From assembly GCA_015231955.1 (NCBI GenBank), contig JADGAN010000023.1, positions 1-64,000 on the forward strand: a stretch of DNA of 64,000 nucleotides, in the 5' to 3' direction. This DNA is from Oligoflexia bacterium. Lineage in GTDB: Bacteria > Bdellovibrionota > Bacteriovoracia > Bacteriovoracales > Bacteriovoracaceae. Each line of letters starts with the position of its first letter. Positions within the stretch are counted from its first letter, which is position 1. The position numbers and the translations under genes are program-made. The notes below the pieces were generated by a model, which did no database searches, was not told where the DNA came from, and worked only from the letters and a program-made list of their open reading frames with translations. This document shows positions 201 through 9,044 of this stretch, piece by piece.

Positions 201-1541
201 TCAAGAGAAAAGATAGGAGCTAAAATTCTCAATTTTCTTACTTGTCTCGTACCACTCCCAATCGATATCTGAAGCTTCAACAATGCCTGCTCCTCCATAA
301 ACAATTACCTTATTGTCATCAAAGAGAGCAGAACGAATTCCTACTGCAAACTCTACCTCGACAGAGGAGATCATTCCAACAGGAGCAGCATAAAAACCTC
401 TATGCATCTCACTCTCTATCAACGATATAGCTTCCATTGCCATATCATAAGGATAACCAAGCACTGCCGGAGTAGGATGAAAATGCTCTATAAGATGAAG
501 AATCGATTTATCTACTGATGTATGCAGAACTCCTCTGAATTTAGAGTAAAGATGAAACAATTTTTTTAATCTCATTACTTTTTGATGAAAAACTGTCTCC
601 CAATTGTGGCCGCAAATACTCTGGAGTTTTGATTCAATATCTTTACAAACGATATCGTGCTCTCGAATATCTTTAGCTGATTGAGATAACTGCCTAGCAT
701 TACCCTTTTCACGCGGGAGAGTCCCCGCTAAGGCTTCTGTCTCAATTTCATCGCCGTGAAGCAGAAAAAGCCTTTCGGGGGAAATAGAGAGAAAAGCACT
801 CTTTGGAGCGAATTCAAGATAAAAAATATAGGCATACTCTTTTGATGCAAAAATATTTCGCAGTACTTGTCGAGAATAGAGAAATGAATCAAAGTAAAAC
901 ACTTTGTTTCTCGATAGAACAACTTTATTGTTGTAATCCAATTGTTCTTTGATCACACTCACTTGTTTCTTCCATTGAATCTCACTTGGAACCAACATCT
1001 CCTCAATCAGCTGGGCCCCATGTCGTACATCTCGATCACCCTTTATCCCTTCTGGCAATAGAAAAAATCTCTCTCGCATCTTTGTTTCTAAAAAATCTTG
1101 GCCACAACCGCTACGCTCCACCAAAGAGATCGTAATGGTCATAACTCGTTTTTTTCTCTTATCCTCTTCTAGCAAGATAAAAGGAATAAAAAAACAATGC
1201 TTGCTGCTCTTAGATGTAAAATAAAAGAAATCCACTCCTCCAAAAATTTTCAAATAAGGTGACAGCTTTCTCAAATGACAAAGATCACTAGCAAGTTGTG
1301 ATTTTGGTTGCTCCTCTGACAACCATCCTGAATTTCCACCACCAATACAAAAGAGAGAATCTCCTCGATTTTTCCAGCATACCATAGGAGGATGAAGAGA
1401 TAAGTTTTCAATAAAAGTTAACATCTCTCTTTTAGTGTCCCCTGCGATAACAACGCTCCTCCTCAAAATCAAACACTCAAATTTTTGATTTTGATAATAA
1501 TATTTCTCAAATGAATTTAGAGTAAGATCATTAGGAAGCAT
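201..1541 (-). CDS. menF: Isochorismate synthase (menaquinone biosynthesis)
   Basis: This 446-residue protein belongs to the chorismate-binding family and should convert chorismate to isochorismate, the first committed step of menaquinone synthesis. Family landmarks appear in order: KVVLSR (catalytic-lysine region), ETEALAGTLPR, the REHDIV helix, FHPTPAVLGYP, RGFYAAPVG and, near the C-terminus, GAGIVEASDIDWEWYET. The HPTPAVLG and FYAAPVG segments favour isochorismate synthase over anthranilate synthase. It lies 3 nt after the methyltransferase gene on the same strand, which supports a two-gene menaquinone operon. Other men genes are not in the window. Family assignment is firm. Whether it serves menaquinone or a siderophore rests on the ubiE neighbour. 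Confidence 0.93.
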   Translation of the reverse strand: MLPNDLTLNSFEKYYYQNQKFECLILRRSVVIAGDTKREMLTFIENLSLHPPMVCWKNRGDSLFCIGGGNSGWLSEEQPKSQLASDLCHLRKLSPYLKIFGGVDFFYFTSKSSKHCFFIPFILLEEDKRKKRVMTITISLVERSGCGQDFLETKMRERFFLLPEGIKGDRDVRHGAQLIEEMLVPSEIQWKKQVSVIKEQLDYNNKVVLSRNKVFYFDSFLYSRQVLRNIFASKEYAYIFYLEFAPKSAFLSISPERLFLLHGDEIETEALAGTLPREKGNARQLSQSAKDIREHDIVCKDIESKLQSICGHNWETVFHQKVMRLKKLFHLYSKFRGVLHTSVDKSILHLIEHFHPTPAVLGYPYDMAMEAISLIESEMHRGFYAAPVGMISSVEVEFAVGIRSALFDDNKVIVYGGAGIVEASDIDWEWYETSKKIENFSSYLFS

Positions 1542-1544
1542 TCT

Positions 1545-2291
1545 CTACTTTACTCCAATATAGATGGTAACTAGTCCCCAGCACATTTTATGTTCCTCAA
1601 GCTTTCCAAATCCCCTCTTTCCTAATAAGTGCAGAAATCTTTCTCCTGCAGGAAATTCAAAAATCGAGTTTGCAAGATAGGAGTAAGAACTTTTTTGCCC
1701 AGAAAAAAATTCACTTACTGGCAACATTACTCTCTGAAAATAAAAGCGCAAAAGCTTTCTTGTAAGGAGGTTATGAACATTCCCCCAAGAAAATTCCAAT
1801 ACAAATAGTGTTCCACCCTTACTGAGCACTCTATATATTTCCGTAATAGCACCCTCTAGATCTTCAAAATTCCTCACACCAAAAGCTACAGTCGCAGCGC
1901 CAAAACATCCTGCCTCAAATGGAAGTAACTCTGCATTTCCCTCTTGAAAAGTTATTTTTGCAGTGGGGAGTTTTGCTCTCTTATACTTTATCTTTGCAAT
2001 CGCAAGCATCTCCTTAGCAGGATCGATAGCAACAACCTCACCACTTTCCAATGCATGAGAACGCGCTATCATTAAGGAGAGGTCTCCGGTACCTGCTGCC
2101 ACATCTAAAACCCGCATGACTCCTTGGCCTTGTTCTCTTGCTTGTTTTTCAAGTAAAGATACCAATCTCCTTCTCCACCACACATCCATTCTCATCGATA
2201 AGATCCGATTTAACAGATCATATTTCGGGGCCAAATCGTTAAACATTTTAGTTATAGTTGCCAGTTTATGCTCTTTACTTTTCATGTGCAT
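1545..2291 (-). CDS. ubiE: Demethylmenaquinone/UbiE-type C-methyltransferase
   Basis: This 248-residue class I SAM methyltransferase catalyses the last, C-methylating step of menaquinone (or ubiquinone) synthesis. The UbiE signature is visible: an N-terminal FNDLAPKYDLLNRILS segment, the SAM-binding VLDVAAGTGDLSL motif, and VAFGVRNFEDLEGAI. Length matches the family (about 230-255). An ATG start preceded by GGGGAGG about 8 nt upstream fits. A second in-frame Met lies two codons on. It is first in the operon with menF, and the pairing implies a menaquinone role (menG). The start is divergent from the DAHP synthase gene, with under 70 bp between them for both promoters. Confidence 0.94.
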   Translation of the reverse strand: MHMKSKEHKLATITKMFNDLAPKYDLLNRILSMRMDVWWRRRLVSLLEKQAREQGQGVMRVLDVAAGTGDLSLMIARSHALESGEVVAIDPAKEMLAIAKIKYKRAKLPTAKITFQEGNAELLPFEAGCFGAATVAFGVRNFEDLEGAITEIYRVLSKGGTLFVLEFSWGNVHNLLTRKLLRFYFQRVMLPVSEFFSGQKSSYSYLANSIFEFPAGERFLHLLGKRGFGKLEEHKMCWGLVTIYIGVK

Positions 2292-2358
2292 CCCATTAAC
2301 CTCCCCTCGATCTTGCTATTTATTTCTATTCTATAAGACATTGGTTAGGAGAAACGTA

Positions 2359-3111
2359 GTGCTATTTATTATCGGCCCTTGCGCATTAGAAACAATCGAA
2401 CAGGTTAAACCCATCGTTTCCTTATGCAAAAAGTACGAGATTAAACACTTTCGTGCTCAACTCTTCAAGCCTAGAACCAGAGCACATTCATTTCAAGGCC
2501 TAGGTTTAAGCAAGCAAGGGCTAGATATCATCACTTACCTAAAATCTGAAAAGATGGCCATAGTTAGTGAAGCCGCATCGATCGAACAATTAGAGTCTAT
2601 CATTTCCTTTGCCGATATTGTTCAAATTGGCGCACGCAATATGCAAAACTTTGAACTTCTTAAAAATGTTGGCAAGATTCTTAAGAACGCATCACAAGAA
2701 AAGCCAGATTCACAATTTCCTTGCGTAATGCTAAAGCGTGGGTTTGCCAACACCCTCGAAGAGTGGCTAGCTTCGGCAAATTACTTAGAGATTGGTGGAG
2801 TACCCTCGTCCCACATCATTCTCTGTGAGCGAGGCACAAGAAATTTTTCATCACCGACAGGAATCACCCTTGATCTTGCCATGGCATACAAGGCCCAGCA
2901 AATAAGCAAATATCGTGTTATTGTCGATCCTAGTCATGGTACGAGAGAACGTGGTCTCGTCATTCCATTAACAAAAGCATCCATTGCCATAGGAGTTGAT
3001 GGTGTGATGATTGAAGTTCATCCAAAACCTTGGGAATCAGTGAGTGATCCTGCGCAGGCACTCTCCATAGAGGAGCTTGATGCTTATTTAGCTGTCAATT
3101 TTGCAAAATAA
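2359..3111 (+). CDS. aroF: Class I-beta DAHP synthase, short form
   Basis: Catalyses condensation of phosphoenolpyruvate and erythrose-4-phosphate, the first step to chorismate. Motifs in order: GPCALE, FKPRTRAHSFQGLG, VQIGARNMQNFELL, LKRGFANTLEEWL, CERGTRNF, VDPSHGTRER and IEVHPKPW, all typical of type I-beta enzymes of the Bacillus/Thermotoga class. The open frame extends upstream into ubiE, but a GTG at this position has AGGAG 8 nt upstream and begins just before the conserved FIIGPCA strand, giving 250 residues. This form has no N-terminal ACT or chorismate-mutase-like regulatory domain. The usual RGGAFKPRT is RAQLFKPRT here. It probably feeds chorismate to the divergent menF. Confidence 0.9.
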   Translation: MLFIIGPCALETIEQVKPIVSLCKKYEIKHFRAQLFKPRTRAHSFQGLGLSKQGLDIITYLKSEKMAIVSEAASIEQLESIISFADIVQIGARNMQNFELLKNVGKILKNASQEKPDSQFPCVMLKRGFANTLEEWLASANYLEIGGVPSSHIILCERGTRNFSSPTGITLDLAMAYKAQQISKYRVIVDPSHGTRERGLVIPLTKASIAIGVDGVMIEVHPKPWESVSDPAQALSIEELDAYLAVNFAK

Positions 3112-3205
3112 GCTGGCCGCTTGATCTTCTTGCCTGTAAATAAGTGTTACGTTTTACGTTAGTATTAGCAATAGTAGTAATCACTTGAGGAAAGGCAAAG
3201 CGTTT

Positions 3206-4195
3206 ATGTCGCGCGGGTTTAATCTAGTAAATAATCTTCCACCGCATATTCAAAAAGCATTAATGGAACTTGATCTTTCTATCCCGGAGGGGGGAACGTA
3301 CCATGAGATCATCTCTTTGCTTAATCAGACTGTTTTACTCGGGGGGAAACGTTTTCGCCCCATGCTCCTTTTTTTAATTGGTGACCTCTTTGCTATTCCT
3401 ATGGGCAGGCTTGCTCCATTTGCCAGAGCAATTGAATATGTACATGTTGCAAGCCTTTGTCATGATGATGTCATCGATAGCGCCTCGATGAGACGAGGTC
3501 TTCCTTCAATTAATGTTGTCGCTTCCAATAAAATGGCAATTTTAAGTGGGGACTATCTCCTTGCTAAAGTTATTCAAGATTTATGTATGAATGGACACTT
3601 ACCTTCGCTCCAAGCACTTTCTACTGTCATCATGGATCTTAGTCTTGGGGAATGGATGCAGTCACAAACCAATGGCAAATTTCAAGAACCGCCTGACAAA
3701 GAATGGATCGATACCATCATCAAGAAAAAAACTGCAAGTTTGATCGCTTGGAGCTGCTTAGTCCCAGCTCTTCTAAGCAACGCTCCCTCGTCCATGATGA
3801 ATGATCTTAAGCAACTGGGCCTGCTCCTAGGTGAGATTTTTCAACTTACCGATGATATTCTCGACTTTACCACTCCAGAAAATACACCACCTGAAGAAAT
3901 TCTCAGTGATCTACAAAGTGGAACAGTCAACTCGGTTCTAAGTGAATACTTTCACGAAAATCCTACCCAGTGGAGCAACTGGCGCGAAGGAAAGTTTAAT
4001 CTAGATAGTGCTGATTTTACTAATGCTATGTTAATTGTAGAAAAAAAGTGTGAAATAGTTGGAGATCAGGCACTAAAAACTTTCCAAGCTTTGATTCAAA
4101 ATATCTCCCATTTTACTACAAAAAATTTATTGGACTCACCCGCTTCCTTGGCATTAGAATTACTTATTCGTTATCTTCCTAACCGTAAAAAGTAA
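3206..4195 (+). CDS. ispB: All-trans polyprenyl diphosphate synthase
   Basis: An E-type prenyl transferase that elongates isoprenoid diphosphates, probably the menaquinone side chain given the neighbours. Visible are GGKRFRPML, the first aspartate-rich motif HDDVID (D87 to D91) followed by MRRG, the GDYLLAK segment, and the second motif TDDILDF (D216). At 329 residues it matches the hepta/octaprenyl synthase family. I chose the ATG at 3206 because GAGGAAAGG lies about 10 nt upstream. A TTG seven codons earlier is open but has no comparable site. It follows aroF by 94 nt and is 9 nt before the ankyrin lipoprotein gene. Chain length cannot be read from the sequence. Confidence 0.9.
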   Translation: MSRGFNLVNNLPPHIQKALMELDLSIPEGGTYHEIISLLNQTVLLGGKRFRPMLLFLIGDLFAIPMGRLAPFARAIEYVHVASLCHDDVIDSASMRRGLPSINVVASNKMAILSGDYLLAKVIQDLCMNGHLPSLQALSTVIMDLSLGEWMQSQTNGKFQEPPDKEWIDTIIKKKTASLIAWSCLVPALLSNAPSSMMNDLKQLGLLLGEIFQLTDDILDFTTPENTPPEEILSDLQSGTVNSVLSEYFHENPTQWSNWREGKFNLDSADFTNAMLIVEKKCEIVGDQALKTFQALIQNISHFTTKNLLDSPASLALELLIRYLPNRKK

Positions 4196-4204
4196 GGATT
4201 CTTT

Positions 4205-5203
4205 ATGTCACGGCACCTTTTGTTTCTTTTACTTCTGTCTTTTCTCATAACGTCTGGATTTACGACTGGATGTGGCAACGATAAAATGAAAAGCAAGAGA
4301 AGATCAGCGTCCAATGAACAACAACAACAAAATCGCATCAACCCTAGTGAAGGATTGATTCCCGTAACCAATATTACTCCTGATATGCCTTTTGATCAAA
4401 GAGAGAGCATTTGTAAGAATCACACTGGATCGCTCAAAGCAACTTGCACCTATGATAAAGAGATGGTGAAGAGTCTTCTTCGCTACTATCCCATAGACCA
4501 GACAGTTAACTTGCAAAACGATTATGGATGGACGCCACTGATGTGGGCCTGTAAAAATGGACAAAGCGATTTGGTAAAGCTTTTTCTCGAGCAACCTAGT
4601 GTGGATATCAATCTCCAAGATAAAGTAGACAGAAGCGCTCTCACCTATGCACTCTCAGAAAAAGAACGAACAGAAATTGTCGAGCTACTGCTTGCACGTC
4701 CTGAAATTGACATTTCTTTAGAGGATAAGTGGAAAGACACAGCGATCAAACTTGCTTACAAAGCACGCCTGCTCGACGTAACTAGAACATTGCTAAAAAA
4801 AGGTGCCAAGGTCAATGACCAATACCTTTTAGTCAAGGCCACCCAAGATAATCTTCTCGATTTTGTAGAGCTTTTTTTAGAATTCAAGGCCATGCCTAAT
4901 ATGTTCGACAGTGAGGGTTCTTCGGCCCTTTGTGAAGCTGCACGCACTGGTTCTATTGTTCTAGTCACCTTGTTGATCAAGCACAACGCTGATATCAATA
5001 TTGTTGATCATAAAAATGGCAGCACCCCTATGATCTATGCGACCAAGAAAGGAAACTATGAAATTGTCTCTACACTTCTACAACACGGCGCAAATCCGAA
5101 CATTCGTGAGAGGGGAGCAGGAAAAACAGCTCTTTGGTACGCAGTGTCTCTCAATCGCCCCGAGATTGCAGAGCTAATTCGCTCTTATGGAGGGCAATTC
5201 TAG
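4205..5203 (+). CDS. Ankyrin-repeat lipoprotein
   Basis: A 332-residue exported protein. The N-terminus has a hydrophobic stretch of leucines and phenylalanines ending in TTGC, a plausible but not ideal lipobox, so it is probably a lipoprotein. From about residue 95 to the end there are about seven ankyrin-type repeats, for example GWTPLMWACKNGQSDLVKLF, GSTPMIYATKKGNYEIVSTL and KTALWYAVSLNRPEIAELI. Some middle repeats are divergent. Ankyrin repeats bind other proteins; the partner is unknown. A good AAGGA site precedes the ATG. It probably shares a transcript with the prenyl synthase 9 nt upstream, but no functional link is evident. Confidence 0.8.
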   Translation: MSRHLLFLLLLSFLITSGFTTGCGNDKMKSKRRSASNEQQQQNRINPSEGLIPVTNITPDMPFDQRESICKNHTGSLKATCTYDKEMVKSLLRYYPIDQTVNLQNDYGWTPLMWACKNGQSDLVKLFLEQPSVDINLQDKVDRSALTYALSEKERTEIVELLLARPEIDISLEDKWKDTAIKLAYKARLLDVTRTLLKKGAKVNDQYLLVKATQDNLLDFVELFLEFKAMPNMFDSEGSSALCEAARTGSIVLVTLLIKHNADINIVDHKNGSTPMIYATKKGNYEIVSTLLQHGANPNIRERGAGKTALWYAVSLNRPEIAELIRSYGGQF

Positions 5204-5590: not shown

Positions 5591-8293
5591 TTAACTTCTA
5601 GAAGTTTTCACTAAAAGTAATGATCTGGTTACATACTCTTTAGCTGTCGGTAAGCCTAAAACAATTGGCAATTCCAAAATAACAAACGGTAACGTCAGAA
5701 TTGAAATCGTCCCCCTGAAAAGACCTAAAATGTATGCATTAGAAAAGCTCTCCATTGGTTTTATCCCCACAATGTATTGAAAAAAAGTTGTCCCTACAAT
5801 GGTTATAGGGAATACAAACGCAAAGATTAATGCGGTTGGAGTAAACTCAGAATAAAAGAAGGCAATATAATCCCAGAGGAAATTTAAATCTTTTATACTT
5901 ACATAACTTAGTAGCTCTTCACTCGATTTAACAAGAATTGAGTACTTTGCAAGATAGGCCAATACCACTCGATCTAATTCACTCACAGCAGAACTTAAAT
6001 GGTGGAGGTACTTACTTATAAAATAAGCTAACACCAAGTCGCCAGCAAGAGAAACCCCCCTGCGCAAAGGCCCTGCAAGTGCATAATCATTACCATAGTT
6101 CACACACAAGATCTCTTTAATGCAAGTTACAACCATGGAAAAGAGTTTTGAAGAGGCCTTAAGACGTTTGATTATATTAGGTGAAAGTTGGCGTAGTTGC
6201 TTTAGCTTAAGATAGAGCCTCTCTCGCTTTTTGCGTAAGAATTGATTCATTCCTACAATATGTGCCCATGCTCTACTCTCAGCAACTCCTAGAAGCTCTT
6301 CATTTTGACAAATTAAAAGTGAGCGTGAGAAGATTTCTTTCATCGAGGGAATTCCTATTGCCATCGTCAAATCCAAAGGGGCCAGTGGTAATAACACCAA
6401 TCCCAAACTACATCGAATGCAAGTGGTTACTCTGCCAATACCTCCTCTCATCGGTCCATCAATTTGTAAGATGAACTGCCCAAGAGTCGAACCTAACAAT
6501 AGAGGAATCATCAACAAAAAAAATATCGCGAGCAAAAATGAAATTTTTTCCAAAAGAGAAAAACTCATGTTCATATAGATGAACACAATATCACCGCTAA
6601 TACCCGTGGCAGAGAGCACGTATTGATAAGCATAAAGCATTTTTGCAAACAAGAGGCGATCCCATTCATTAACTATGGGAAAAAAATCTCCAAGCAAATG
6701 CGTAAATGCAAAGATTATTGCAAGATCAATGGCAAAAGCACAACTCCTCCTACGCCAACGAGGAATTAAATAAATGGGCAAACCCGTTGCTAAATCACGT
6801 TCCGGCAACATCAAGAGGATGCGAATCCATCGCACCAATCTGCGATAAAGAGCACTTTTTTCTAATATGGCCTTAATCTTTGCAATGATTTTTTCAAACA
6901 AAGCAGATAGCGCTTCTGCTATTCGATCCCGGAAAGAGAGTTTTTTTGCCTCACCATGAACACTTTCTAAAACAATATCTACATAGGTTGTATCAATATC
7001 TTTGTCTTTATTATCTTTGCTTTTATGTCGCCTTAATTTCCTTAGTCGCATCATCTCAAGCGAAGGCAGTGTGACAAGACAAGACCGAAAAATCATCTCT
7101 TTGATTGTAGGTAATCCCATAATCAGTGGAATCTCAAGCACAAAGAATGGTAGCGTAACTGCTCCAAAAATGGCCTTTAGTGGCGGCAGGATTCTTTGAG
7201 TAATAGGATCATTTAATACACGCACTCTTAATAAGTAAGCAGGGATGGAGACTCCGTACAAGAGTGCTCCTAATAGCGTCCAAAAGAGGTAAGTCGTAAT
7301 CGGAAATGCCTCTAAAAAACGTTCCAGAAAAAAGAAAATAATCGAGTTACTTGAAAACCATTGATCTAGCAAAAATCCATACCCTTCGGTTATCGCATGA
7401 ATAATATCTGTGCATACAAGATTATAAGAGTTTAATGACCGCAGGAAAAAATCTGCCCAAAAGCAGATCATCACATCTATAGAAAAGAGAAGAAATCGAA
7501 ATTTCCTACTTACGATTTCAATTCCTTTACCTTCTAAATTTGCATAGCTGAATTTCTTTAATAGCCGAATCCCTTCTCTACATAAAAAGCTCCAAAACTC
7601 GGCCAGTTGTTCTGATAATGTTTTATTTTTTTTCACCGCCTCTGCTTCTGTGACCTTTTTTCTATAAGCGTGATCTACCTTTCTTGGCTCCTCTAAAATC
7701 AAAGGTCTCGTCTTGGTCACTGAAATCATCACACCACCAAGACTAATCTTAGAAGAGGTATCCAATACCCACAATTTTCCTGCAGAAATATCTCTTTCAC
7801 CCACAGTAATTCCACGCATTTGATGTTGTGACATTAAAACTAGATAGTTGTTCATCAAATACACTTTGCAGTGGCGCAATACTCCATCTGGGTCGTTTAC
7901 TACGATATGAGAGTGTTCACCACATCCAAAAGCAATCGCAGTTTGCACATTAAAAAAACGCTTTTCTTCACAGTTTTCCATACCTTCTACGCAAAGATAG
8001 AACGTTTTTTCATCATCATCCTCACTCTCTAATTCAGTTGGAGAGGCCTTTGCTTTTCTTACCTCGACATGTTCCTTTTCTCCTTTTCGATTTTGTTTAA
8101 TCAACTTCCCATGAGCATCATACTTTCTCTCATACTTGTTATTAGTCAATGTCACCTCTTGATTTTTCGGTTTCTCTCCTTGCTCCCCATTGCTAGAGTG
8201 ACCATGCCCCACGGTATTCACCTCTATTTGCATGGTCTCATCAGGGTTAAAATCTGGAGTATTGTTCTCTGGGAGTGGTTTTTTTTGCGACAA
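5591..8293 (-). CDS. FHA-like domain protein with three RDD membrane modules
   Basis: A 900-residue membrane protein. About 85 charged residues precede an FHA-like domain (about 95-195, with FGCGEHSHIVVNDPDG and LRHCKVYLMNNYLVL). Three membrane modules follow, starting near residues 262, 511 and 741, each opening with an Arg-rich segment and a Asp-containing helix (FRFLLFSIDV, RRRSCAFAIDLAI, RRGVSLAGDLVL). Each ends with a related segment, for example LPFVILELPIVLGLPTAKEY. This is the RDD family layout, tripled. The start is TTG with AGGAGG 5 nt upstream; no ATG occurs before residue 21. FHA domains usually bind phosphothreonine, but no kinase is adjacent. RDD function is poorly defined; transport of small solutes or ions has been proposed. 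Confidence 0.78.
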   Translation of the reverse strand: MSQKKPLPENNTPDFNPDETMQIEVNTVGHGHSSNGEQGEKPKNQEVTLTNNKYERKYDAHGKLIKQNRKGEKEHVEVRKAKASPTELESEDDDEKTFYLCVEGMENCEEKRFFNVQTAIAFGCGEHSHIVVNDPDGVLRHCKVYLMNNYLVLMSQHQMRGITVGERDISAGKLWVLDTSSKISLGGVMISVTKTRPLILEEPRKVDHAYRKKVTEAEAVKKNKTLSEQLAEFWSFLCREGIRLLKKFSYANLEGKGIEIVSRKFRFLLFSIDVMICFWADFFLRSLNSYNLVCTDIIHAITEGYGFLLDQWFSSNSIIFFFLERFLEAFPITTYLFWTLLGALLYGVSIPAYLLRVRVLNDPITQRILPPLKAIFGAVTLPFFVLEIPLIMGLPTIKEMIFRSCLVTLPSLEMMRLRKLRRHKSKDNKDKDIDTTYVDIVLESVHGEAKKLSFRDRIAEALSALFEKIIAKIKAILEKSALYRRLVRWIRILLMLPERDLATGLPIYLIPRWRRRSCAFAIDLAIIFAFTHLLGDFFPIVNEWDRLLFAKMLYAYQYVLSATGISGDIVFIYMNMSFSLLEKISFLLAIFFLLMIPLLLGSTLGQFILQIDGPMRGGIGRVTTCIRCSLGLVLLPLAPLDLTMAIGIPSMKEIFSRSLLICQNEELLGVAESRAWAHIVGMNQFLRKKRERLYLKLKQLRQLSPNIIKRLKASSKLFSMVVTCIKEILCVNYGNDYALAGPLRRGVSLAGDLVLAYFISKYLHHLSSAVSELDRVVLAYLAKYSILVKSSEELLSYVSIKDLNFLWDYIAFFYSEFTPTALIFAFVFPITIVGTTFFQYIVGIKPMESFSNAYILGLFRGTISILTLPFVILELPIVLGLPTAKEYVTRSLLLVKTSRS

Positions 8294-8357
8294 GGATGCC
8301 TCCTATATTGTGAGCAAAAGATGTCATAGTATAATTATAGATAGGAGGGCCATAGAA

Positions 8358-9044
8358 ATGAATCTTGTAAAAATTGTATTCTGCTTAGAAGATAAACAAG
8401 ATCTCGCATTGCTTAGAACCAAATTTAATACCAATGAAAAATTTATCTTTGAATACATCATAAACATTGAAGATTTAGATAAGATCATTCAAGCTGGAGA
8501 GGTCTCTCTGATCATTTTTAATTATGGTGAGCAAACACTCGAGCTTGGACGGCAAATCAAGGAGAAGCTGAGCGAAGTTCTCTGCTTTTACATTTTTCCT
8601 CAAGATGTCGAGCTAGATACATTACTGAAATTACAGCTATCCTATAAAAATTTTGATGGCCCAATCATTCGCCCTCTCAATGTCTCTCTTCTCGGAAAAA
8701 TCTTCTACGATCTCTTCGTCATTAAAAATGTGGATCCATTTACAGAAGCAGAGGCATCTTCTTATGATACCCCTCCCGCTAAAGAAGCTCAAAAAGAGTC
8801 CAAGGAAATTGCTTTTAGCAAAGAAGATGAGGAAGGCGCCAAAGAGATTGCTATTGAACAACAGAGCTATGATAAGTTTAACACTAAAGAGTTTATGGAG
8901 CTTGCAGAGTTCAAGAGAGAATGTGCACAAGAGAAAGCTCTTGCAGATCTACTGTCAGAGGGGGAGGAGCAGGAGAAAAAACTTTACGAAGAGATCTTAG
9001 CGAAGGAAGAAGCGGAGAAGCGCAAAATTATCAAGAAAAAATAG
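8358..9044 (+). CDS. Receiver-like (pseudo-receiver) protein with acidic tail
   Basis: A 228-residue protein. The first 120 residues look like a receiver fold (MNLVKIVFCLEDK, VSLIIFNYGE, CFYIF, GPIIRPLN), but the phospho-acceptor position in the third strand reads FNYG rather than an aspartate and the usual Lys-Pro is Arg-Pro. It is therefore probably not phosphorylated. The remainder is acidic and helix-forming (EDEEGAKEIA, EEQEKKLYEEILAKEEAEKR). The ATG has AGGAGGG 8 nt upstream; the open frame further 5' overlaps the divergent gene and is ignored. It is divergent from the FHA-RDD gene across a 64-nt gap, so the two may be coregulated. Function unknown. Confidence 0.7.
   Translation: MNLVKIVFCLEDKQDLALLRTKFNTNEKFIFEYIINIEDLDKIIQAGEVSLIIFNYGEQTLELGRQIKEKLSEVLCFYIFPQDVELDTLLKLQLSYKNFDGPIIRPLNVSLLGKIFYDLFVIKNVDPFTEAEASSYDTPPAKEAQKESKEIAFSKEDEEGAKEIAIEQQSYDKFNTKEFMELAEFKRECAQEKALADLLSEGEEQEKKLYEEILAKEEAEKRKIIKKK

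Follow-up and report, generated by a model that had tools for sequence, protein, structure and literature searches.

The DNA analysed here, referred to as the window, is a stretch of 64,000 nucleotides (positions 1 to 64,000 of the forward strand of contig JADGAN010000023.1, assembly GCA_015231955.1) from Oligoflexia bacterium, a member of the Bacteriovoracaceae. Its minus strand carries a gene for a protein of 900 amino acids, in which an FHA-fold domain is followed by three RDD-like membrane modules that are joined by two Lys/Arg-rich linkers (Table 1). The frame is unbroken over all 900 codons. A Shine-Dalgarno-like AGGAGG lies 5 nucleotides before the TTG (8304-8299, minus strand), and a -10-like TATAAT is found approximately 40 nucleotides before it (8339-8334, minus strand). 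These two elements make the TTG credible as the start codon, as does the alignment of the N-terminus with the first residues of the two nearest relatives. A Pfam search of the whole protein returned no family, even at E 10. The protein is a real, well-bounded and new combination of known parts. A literature search of titles and abstracts, in which subscription journals were mostly uncovered, found no description of this family or of a chain with several RDD domains.

Table 1. Features of the target gene and its divergent neighbour; positions are those of the window.
Feature	Position	Strand	Basis
Gene for 900-residue protein, TTG start	5591..8293	-	Open frame; alignment of protein starts with the two closest relatives
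FHA-fold domain, residues 96-197; canonical phosphate-contacting Arg replaced by Cys124	7703..8008	-	Structure model and Arg column
RDD-like membrane module 1, residues 262-412; R266, D273, R367, K373, K398-E399	7058..7510	-	Sequence/profile comparison and model
Linker 1, Lys/Arg-rich, predicted cytoplasmic	6773..7057	-	Lys plus Arg 21.1 per 100 over residues 397-510
RDD-like membrane module 2, residues 508-668; R516, D523, R621, R627, K652-E653	6290..6772	-	Sequence/profile comparison and model
Linker 2, Lys/Arg-rich, predicted cytoplasmic	6086..6289	-	Lys plus Arg 17.4 per 100 over residues 650-741
RDD-like membrane module 3, residues 737-899; R745, D752, Y854, R860, K885-E886	5597..6085	-	Sequence/profile comparison
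Divergent gene, receiver-like by eye; second ATG near 8358	8232..9044	+	Neighbour comparison

An earlier note, made from the letters of the DNA, had proposed three tandem homologous modules, and the internal alignment bears this out. Smith-Waterman scores among the three modules were 107, 123 and 115, compared to 76, 65 and 64 for the best of 1000 shuffles per pair. Searches with single sequences in phmmer linked modules 1 and 2 at 2.5e-8, modules 1 and 3 at 3.6e-11 and modules 2 and 3 at 1.4e-10. Furthermore, each of the three is matched by different relatives, and hhalign aligned the target modules with those of the relatives at 99.3% (E 1.7e-20). These four comparisons are the independent tests, since the hidden Markov model of the module includes the target's own modules, which makes its E-values for the target circular. 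The repeated segment resembling LPxxxLExPxxxGLPTxKE, which had been pointed out in the same note, is real as well and reads LPFFVLEIPLIMGLPTIKE, LPLAPLDLTMAIGIPSMKE and LPFVILELPIVLGLPTAKE in the three modules. The pairwise identity is 22-23%, hence the duplication is old or fast rather than recent.

In the full-length structure model, module 1 reached a predicted local distance difference test score (pLDDT) of 78-95 by block over residues 261-410, but 67-68 over 311-330, and modules 2 and 3 were of low confidence; module 2 folded separately with its homologs gave a pLDDT of 80.2 and a predicted template modelling score of 0.67. The topology was read from the charge pattern, which places the loops between helices 1 and 2 outside (Lys plus Arg 2.3, 4.8 and 8.9 per 100) and the basic linkers inside, whereas the short stretches after helix 2 (13.0, 6.2 and 5.6 per 100) are less telling. 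We infer that the chain of each module starts and ends at the cytoplasmic face of the membrane, which would place the FHA fold and both linkers in the cytoplasm.

The modules share a set of charged residues. Among 36 modules of the family, the Arg of transmembrane helix 1 occurs in 34 (Lys in 2) and the Asp seven residues further on in 20, the column of R621 holds Arg in 35, and that of R627 in 34 (Lys in 2). The second Asp of RDD domains, which stands near the C-terminus beside a His, is replaced by a Lys-Glu pair, with Glu in 36/36 and Lys in 34/36 modules. All three target modules possess the helix-1 Arg and Asp as well as the Lys-Glu pair; in module 3, the first conserved Arg of its helix is substituted by Y854. 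The helix-1 pairs R266/D273, R516/D523 and R745/D752 show the same spacing of seven as R35/D42 in the RDD protein of Halobacillus andaensis.

The identity of the modules as RDD domains, as claimed in the earlier note, could be upheld as a remote family relationship, not as a Pfam match of any copy. In hhalign, the 36 family modules aligned with 27 true RDD domains at 80.5% (E 1.3e-5, 120 columns), compared to 0.1-0.2% for reversed controls. The RDD set was drawn from the window genome and its relatives and comprised 32 loci, of which four were dropped at contig ends and L074 gave no row due to internal stops. The row of L132 was over-long in this 36-module run and was trimmed for the module tree described below; alignment A3 was made without L010, the G129 modules and the second G024 module. 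An earlier set of 29 modules had reached 57.9%, or 59.3% with the target excluded, over 64-65 columns. Scored singly with the RDD profile, modules 1, 2 and 3 obtained E-values of 0.22, 0.0027 and 2.6, respectively, where the best reversed decoy stood at 0.71, and hmmsearch placed 8/36 modules over the inclusion line, with target module 2 inside and modules 1 and 3 outside. With such single scores, modules 1 and 3 can be called RDD-like only on the grounds that they are homologous to the other family modules. At the curated cut-off, Pfam RDD (PF06271) was not matched by any module copy, nor by the target up to E 10, and it was not among the 24 Pfam families that the 26 members of alignment A1 matched at E 1; one family member that is devoid of the FHA domain came to E 0.023 and 15.4 bits, under the cut-off of 24.1. 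No family name for the module was found in Pfam or NCBIfam. A search with the module model gave no clear match in the PDB and BFVD, in the latter none at E 0.001. A likeness to the Pex retro-translocon (7t92_A, Z 8.3, root-mean-square deviation 3.5, 121 aligned residues) was set aside, as the Foldseek E-value was 4.8 and such Z values are common for helical models. Judged by profile homology, the module is remotely related to RDD domains without being PF06271 by cut-off; because it falls below Pfam detection and carries Lys-Glu in place of His-Asp, yet is homologous at the profile level, we name it RDD-like.

Given this relationship, the modules could be secondary transporters similar to the Na+(Li+,K+)/H+ antiporter RDD of H. 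andaensis, which would make the target a three-unit transporter in one chain. According to the available part of PMC5996927, D154, R124, R129 and D158 are needed for antiport there and the D154E variant retained growth complementation, and the invariant Glu and conserved Arg of our modules stand at roughly comparable places. However, this residue correspondence depends on the remote alignment, and one conserved Arg is missing in module 3 (Y854). Furthermore, the available part of PMC7568657 reports that resistance to NaCl and alkaline pH was unchanged by deletion or overexpression of SppI, an RDD protein of B. subtilis, and the genes that neighbour the family are related to tRNA modification or undecaprenyl phosphate, not to ions. 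We therefore regard an antiporter role as unlikely.

The FHA-like domain in the N-terminal part, likewise proposed before, is well predicted. In the full-length model it forms a beta-sandwich with pLDDT 84-94 in ten-residue blocks over 101-190 and 75 over 191-200, and the model of residues 96-197 superposes best on 6hbz_A (Z 15.0, root-mean-square deviation 2.0, 102 residues). Foldseek found 73 matches at E <= 0.001, the leading ones being FHA domains. Pfam FHA (PF00498) is matched by 20/26 members of alignment A1 (E up to 1, best 5.2e-16), the target itself giving no match to this profile up to E 10, and the A1 profile retrieves FHA domains among the PDB sequences, with DgcB as the best (E 1.7e-12).

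The fold was therefore found as expected; the regulation by phosphothreonine that had been deduced from it was not borne out. The Arg of the GR motif of FHA domains contacts phosphate, and S-x-x-H is another motif of these domains. In the GR-Arg column over 34 aligned sequences, target included, we found Ser in 31, Cys in 1 (Cys124 of the target), Ala in 1 and Lys in 1, thus the phosphate-contacting Arg in 0/34. As a control, GR is kept in 8/10 other FHA domains of the window genome. In addition, the target has Val at the Ser position of the S-x-x-H motif. One relative beyond this alignment (G135, L081/L145), which was left out of it because its stretch is cut short, does carry the GR Arg. The genome also contains Ser/Thr kinases, for which the earlier note had suggested a search: eight domain matches were obtained, seven of them over the cut-off, none tied to the target protein. 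A transporter or channel in which kinase signals gate the three modules via the FHA domain would be in line with the FHA fold and these eight kinase-domain matches, but with the Arg absent from the aligned family and the Ser replaced, it is highly improbable, also when the GR of the G135 relative is taken into account. Hence, phosphothreonine control was dropped as the leading idea and is not supported by the sequence, and the target FHA domain appears to be a worn-down version of a phosphopeptide reader.

Matches to the target protein occur in 44/96 genomes searched (own included, E 0.01), all within its own bacterial family. The module itself was detected in 115/368 genomes of the phylum Bdellovibrionota, i.e. 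in 115/129 of the own family and 0/239 outside, in a survey that scored up to ten candidates per genome with a profile from the own family and may therefore miss remote members. The usual family member combines a single module with a C-terminal domain of approximately 350 amino acids and, in most cases, a degenerate FHA-fold domain in front. More than one module is present in only 4/33 module proteins examined, namely three in the target and two each in the proteins from G024, G129 and G036. The two-module proteins of G024 and G129 are the nearest relatives of the target. The protein of G036 (L138, G036:C14, 4586-6865) has kept the C-terminal domain and is without FHA, and its 13-kb locus contains neither uppP nor tgt; due to these differences in architecture and neighbours, its module duplication is apparently independent of that in the target lineage.

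In the module tree, a branch with support 93/98 separates all seven modules of the target, G024 and G129 from the others. Within this group, only the second modules cluster across species (93/57) and the remaining order is unsettled. An origin of modules 2 and 3 by fusion of unrelated paralogs is not favoured, since the tree joins both to module 1 in the same clade. From this grouping and the existence of two-module relatives, the first duplication is probably older than the split of these genera; the third module was seen only in the window genome among the proteins examined. The internal triplication assumed in the earlier note thus holds, and the best reading is a lineage-specific paralog that lacks the C-terminal domain and whose module was first doubled and later tripled. 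No end branches in the tree are longer than those of the target modules (2.05-2.82 versus a median of 0.99), which makes the placement of these modules unsure. Such branches, together with the low module identity, could also point to a fast-evolving, perhaps decaying paralog without distinct function. This is highly unlikely, however, because the 900-codon frame with its Shine-Dalgarno-like and -10-like sequences is intact, the helix-1 Arg, the Asp and the Lys-Glu pair are kept in all modules, and a homolog of the divergent neighbour gene is also divergent from the two-module relatives, i.e. in 3/3 genomes of the target's clade.

The genomic surroundings of the family give a hint at a function. 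In 66/104 genomes with both genes, among the matches listed, uppP follows directly downstream of the module gene in the same orientation, the uppP match beginning 1.07-1.42 kb beyond that of the module. This is a raw count on a module list of 152 places in 110 genomes, many of which are fragmented. The window genome itself encodes a second family member of 738 amino acids with one module, which stands beside uppP at another locus (L116, G000:C11). In the loci that were opened, three settings recur: uppP or its usual neighbours, tgt, and the divergent receiver-like gene; L138, L143 and L144 are outside all three. The uppP type comprises 14 loci (L092-L097, L105, L108, L116, L129-L132, L140). 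UppP is immediately adjacent to the module gene in 10/14 of them and some genes away in L140; uppP was not in the stretch at L092, L095 and L096, all from one genus. Very large proteins, exported by eye, are also encoded in most of the 14 loci. The gene tgt for queuine tRNA-ribosyltransferase, whose identity was confirmed by Pfam in one locus, directly adjoins single-module members in L098-L104, L106, L107, L109, L139, L141 and L142. Of the 20 relatives' loci, 7 contain a homolog of a DEAD-box helicase and 8 contain a DksA-like homolog. An apparent fusion with UppP in G135 (L145, G135:C34:21500-26500, 536-3556; a frame of 1008 amino acids) was rejected, because an undetermined residue X at the junction makes it indistinguishable from two adjoining genes; it is probably an assembly effect.

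Often around uppP, a recurrent gene cluster was observed (L116 at G000:C11:68500-87000, L092-L097, L105, L130-L132 and L140; L129 contains its first part only). It encodes a protein of approximately 1000-1700 amino acids, an RDD-like protein, a protein of approximately 1000-1200 and a lipoprotein-like protein of approximately 700-860 amino acids, exported by eye. The cluster proteins tested in L093 and L116 had no Pfam match over a cut-off. To us, the cluster looks like an undescribed cell-surface system.

These surroundings also bear on a possible role as a membrane scaffold or regulator. In this case, the modules would bind other membrane proteins, in the way that SppI binds SppA and inhibits it, and the FHA fold would gather cytoplasmic partners. 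The complex of the RDD protein SppI with SppA is reported in the available part of PMC7568657. Moreover, the FHA fold is kept despite the loss of the phosphate-contacting Arg, many uppP-linked members have neighbours that encode very large proteins, exported by eye, and multiplied modules would suit a scaffold. The near-invariant charged residues of the modules are nevertheless what a ligand site would show, and no partner has been identified, which leaves the scaffold as a tentative and rather doubtful explanation.

In the window, the product of the divergent receiver-like gene (Table 1) matched no Pfam family up to E 1; by eye, it has Asn at the expected phospho-acceptor Asp, where the copies of G024 and G129 have Asp. 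On the other side of the target gene, the plus strand carries a gene for an ankyrin-repeat protein according to Pfam (4205-5203), whose start looks lipoprotein-like by eye; a polyprenyl-synthase-like gene (3185-4195, named by eye) lies just upstream of it.

We favour the reading, with a probability of roughly 40%, that the target is a paralog specific to its lineage and that its modules act at the cytoplasmic face of the membrane, on an anionic lipid or a lipid-carrier phosphate, with the FHA fold as a phosphate-independent dock. The conserved Arg, Lys and Glu/Asp of each module would form a site for a phosphate-bearing lipid at this face. Because the single-module parents are often directly upstream of uppP, the ligand would most likely be undecaprenyl (pyro)phosphate or another anionic lipid, and the same adjacency suggests that the parent family and UppP share a step in undecaprenyl-phosphate recycling. 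The FHA fold would most likely dock a partner protein without phosphothreonine. The available part of PMC12419801 describes a conserved intramembrane site of RDD domains that faces the cytoplasm, their frequent fusion to VanZ and proposed ties to lipid carriers. On the basis of the same parents, a more specific version can be drawn, in which the single-module form is a membrane partner dedicated to UppP in this bacterial family, the RDD-like modules handle undecaprenyl phosphate at the inner leaflet as an oligomer, and the target is a single-chain concatemer, i.e. a pseudo-trimer of three non-equivalent subunits. We consider it a long shot; if true, it would reveal a lipid-carrier function for the RDD fold together with its working stoichiometry.

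Several observations weigh against the proposed action on a carrier phosphate. The linkage to uppP was not seen in 38/104 genomes among the matches listed, single-module members are linked to tgt in 10/20 relatives' loci plus three more, and the triplicated gene itself is not beside uppP, adjoining the receiver-like gene instead. When the three target modules alone were aligned with the RDD set, hhalign gave 34.4% over 94 columns. Due to the long module branches, relaxed constraint on the target modules is possible. DedA-family proteins are carrier-lipid flippases, and the family (PF09335) is present in 129/129 genomes, 128 over the cut-off; hence, no flippase gap calls for the target protein, and this idea was discarded in a search that left DUF368/PopT outside. 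Finally, one RDD protein tested for transport was reported as a cation/H+ antiporter, as far as the available part of PMC5996927 goes.

Generally, the role of RDD proteins is disputed, with an antiporter (PMC5996927), a protease inhibitor (PMC7568657) and a lipid-carrier proposal (PMC12419801) put forward in the available parts of these sources. Single-module relatives that often stand beside the gene for recycling of the cell-wall lipid carrier hint at the role of a poorly understood module, and this adjacency to uppP offers a concrete, testable substrate for it. The two- and three-module paralogs raise the question whether the working unit is an oligomer. Furthermore, the target gives reason for caution, as an FHA fold does not necessarily imply phosphothreonine signalling.

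Among known and related systems, the single-module proteins of the own family are alike in having an FHA-like domain followed by the same module, including the member of the own genome next to uppP, and differ by their one module, the extra C-terminal domain and the missing FHA domain in some of them. The FHA domain of DgcB from Bdellovibrio (6hbz, 6hc0, 6hc1) has the same fold as that of the target, but carries the GR Arg and, according to the entry title, was solved with a phosphorylated peptide, whereas the position of the Arg holds Cys in the target and Ser in most family members. With the RDD family, represented by the H. andaensis antiporter and SppI of B. subtilis, the modules share the Arg and Asp seven apart in helix 1 and, in the profile-profile register, a Gly-containing motif, the following Arg and a C-terminal acidic residue; the target differs in falling under Pfam detection, in Lys-Glu for His-Asp and in its three copies behind an FHA fold. 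Similar to the VanZ-RDD fusions described in the available part of PMC12419801, an RDD-type unit is joined to another domain in one chain and a link to lipid-carrier metabolism is suggested; the target has no VanZ match (no Pfam hits), and here the link to the carrier comes via the uppP genes adjacent to the parents and not via fusion.

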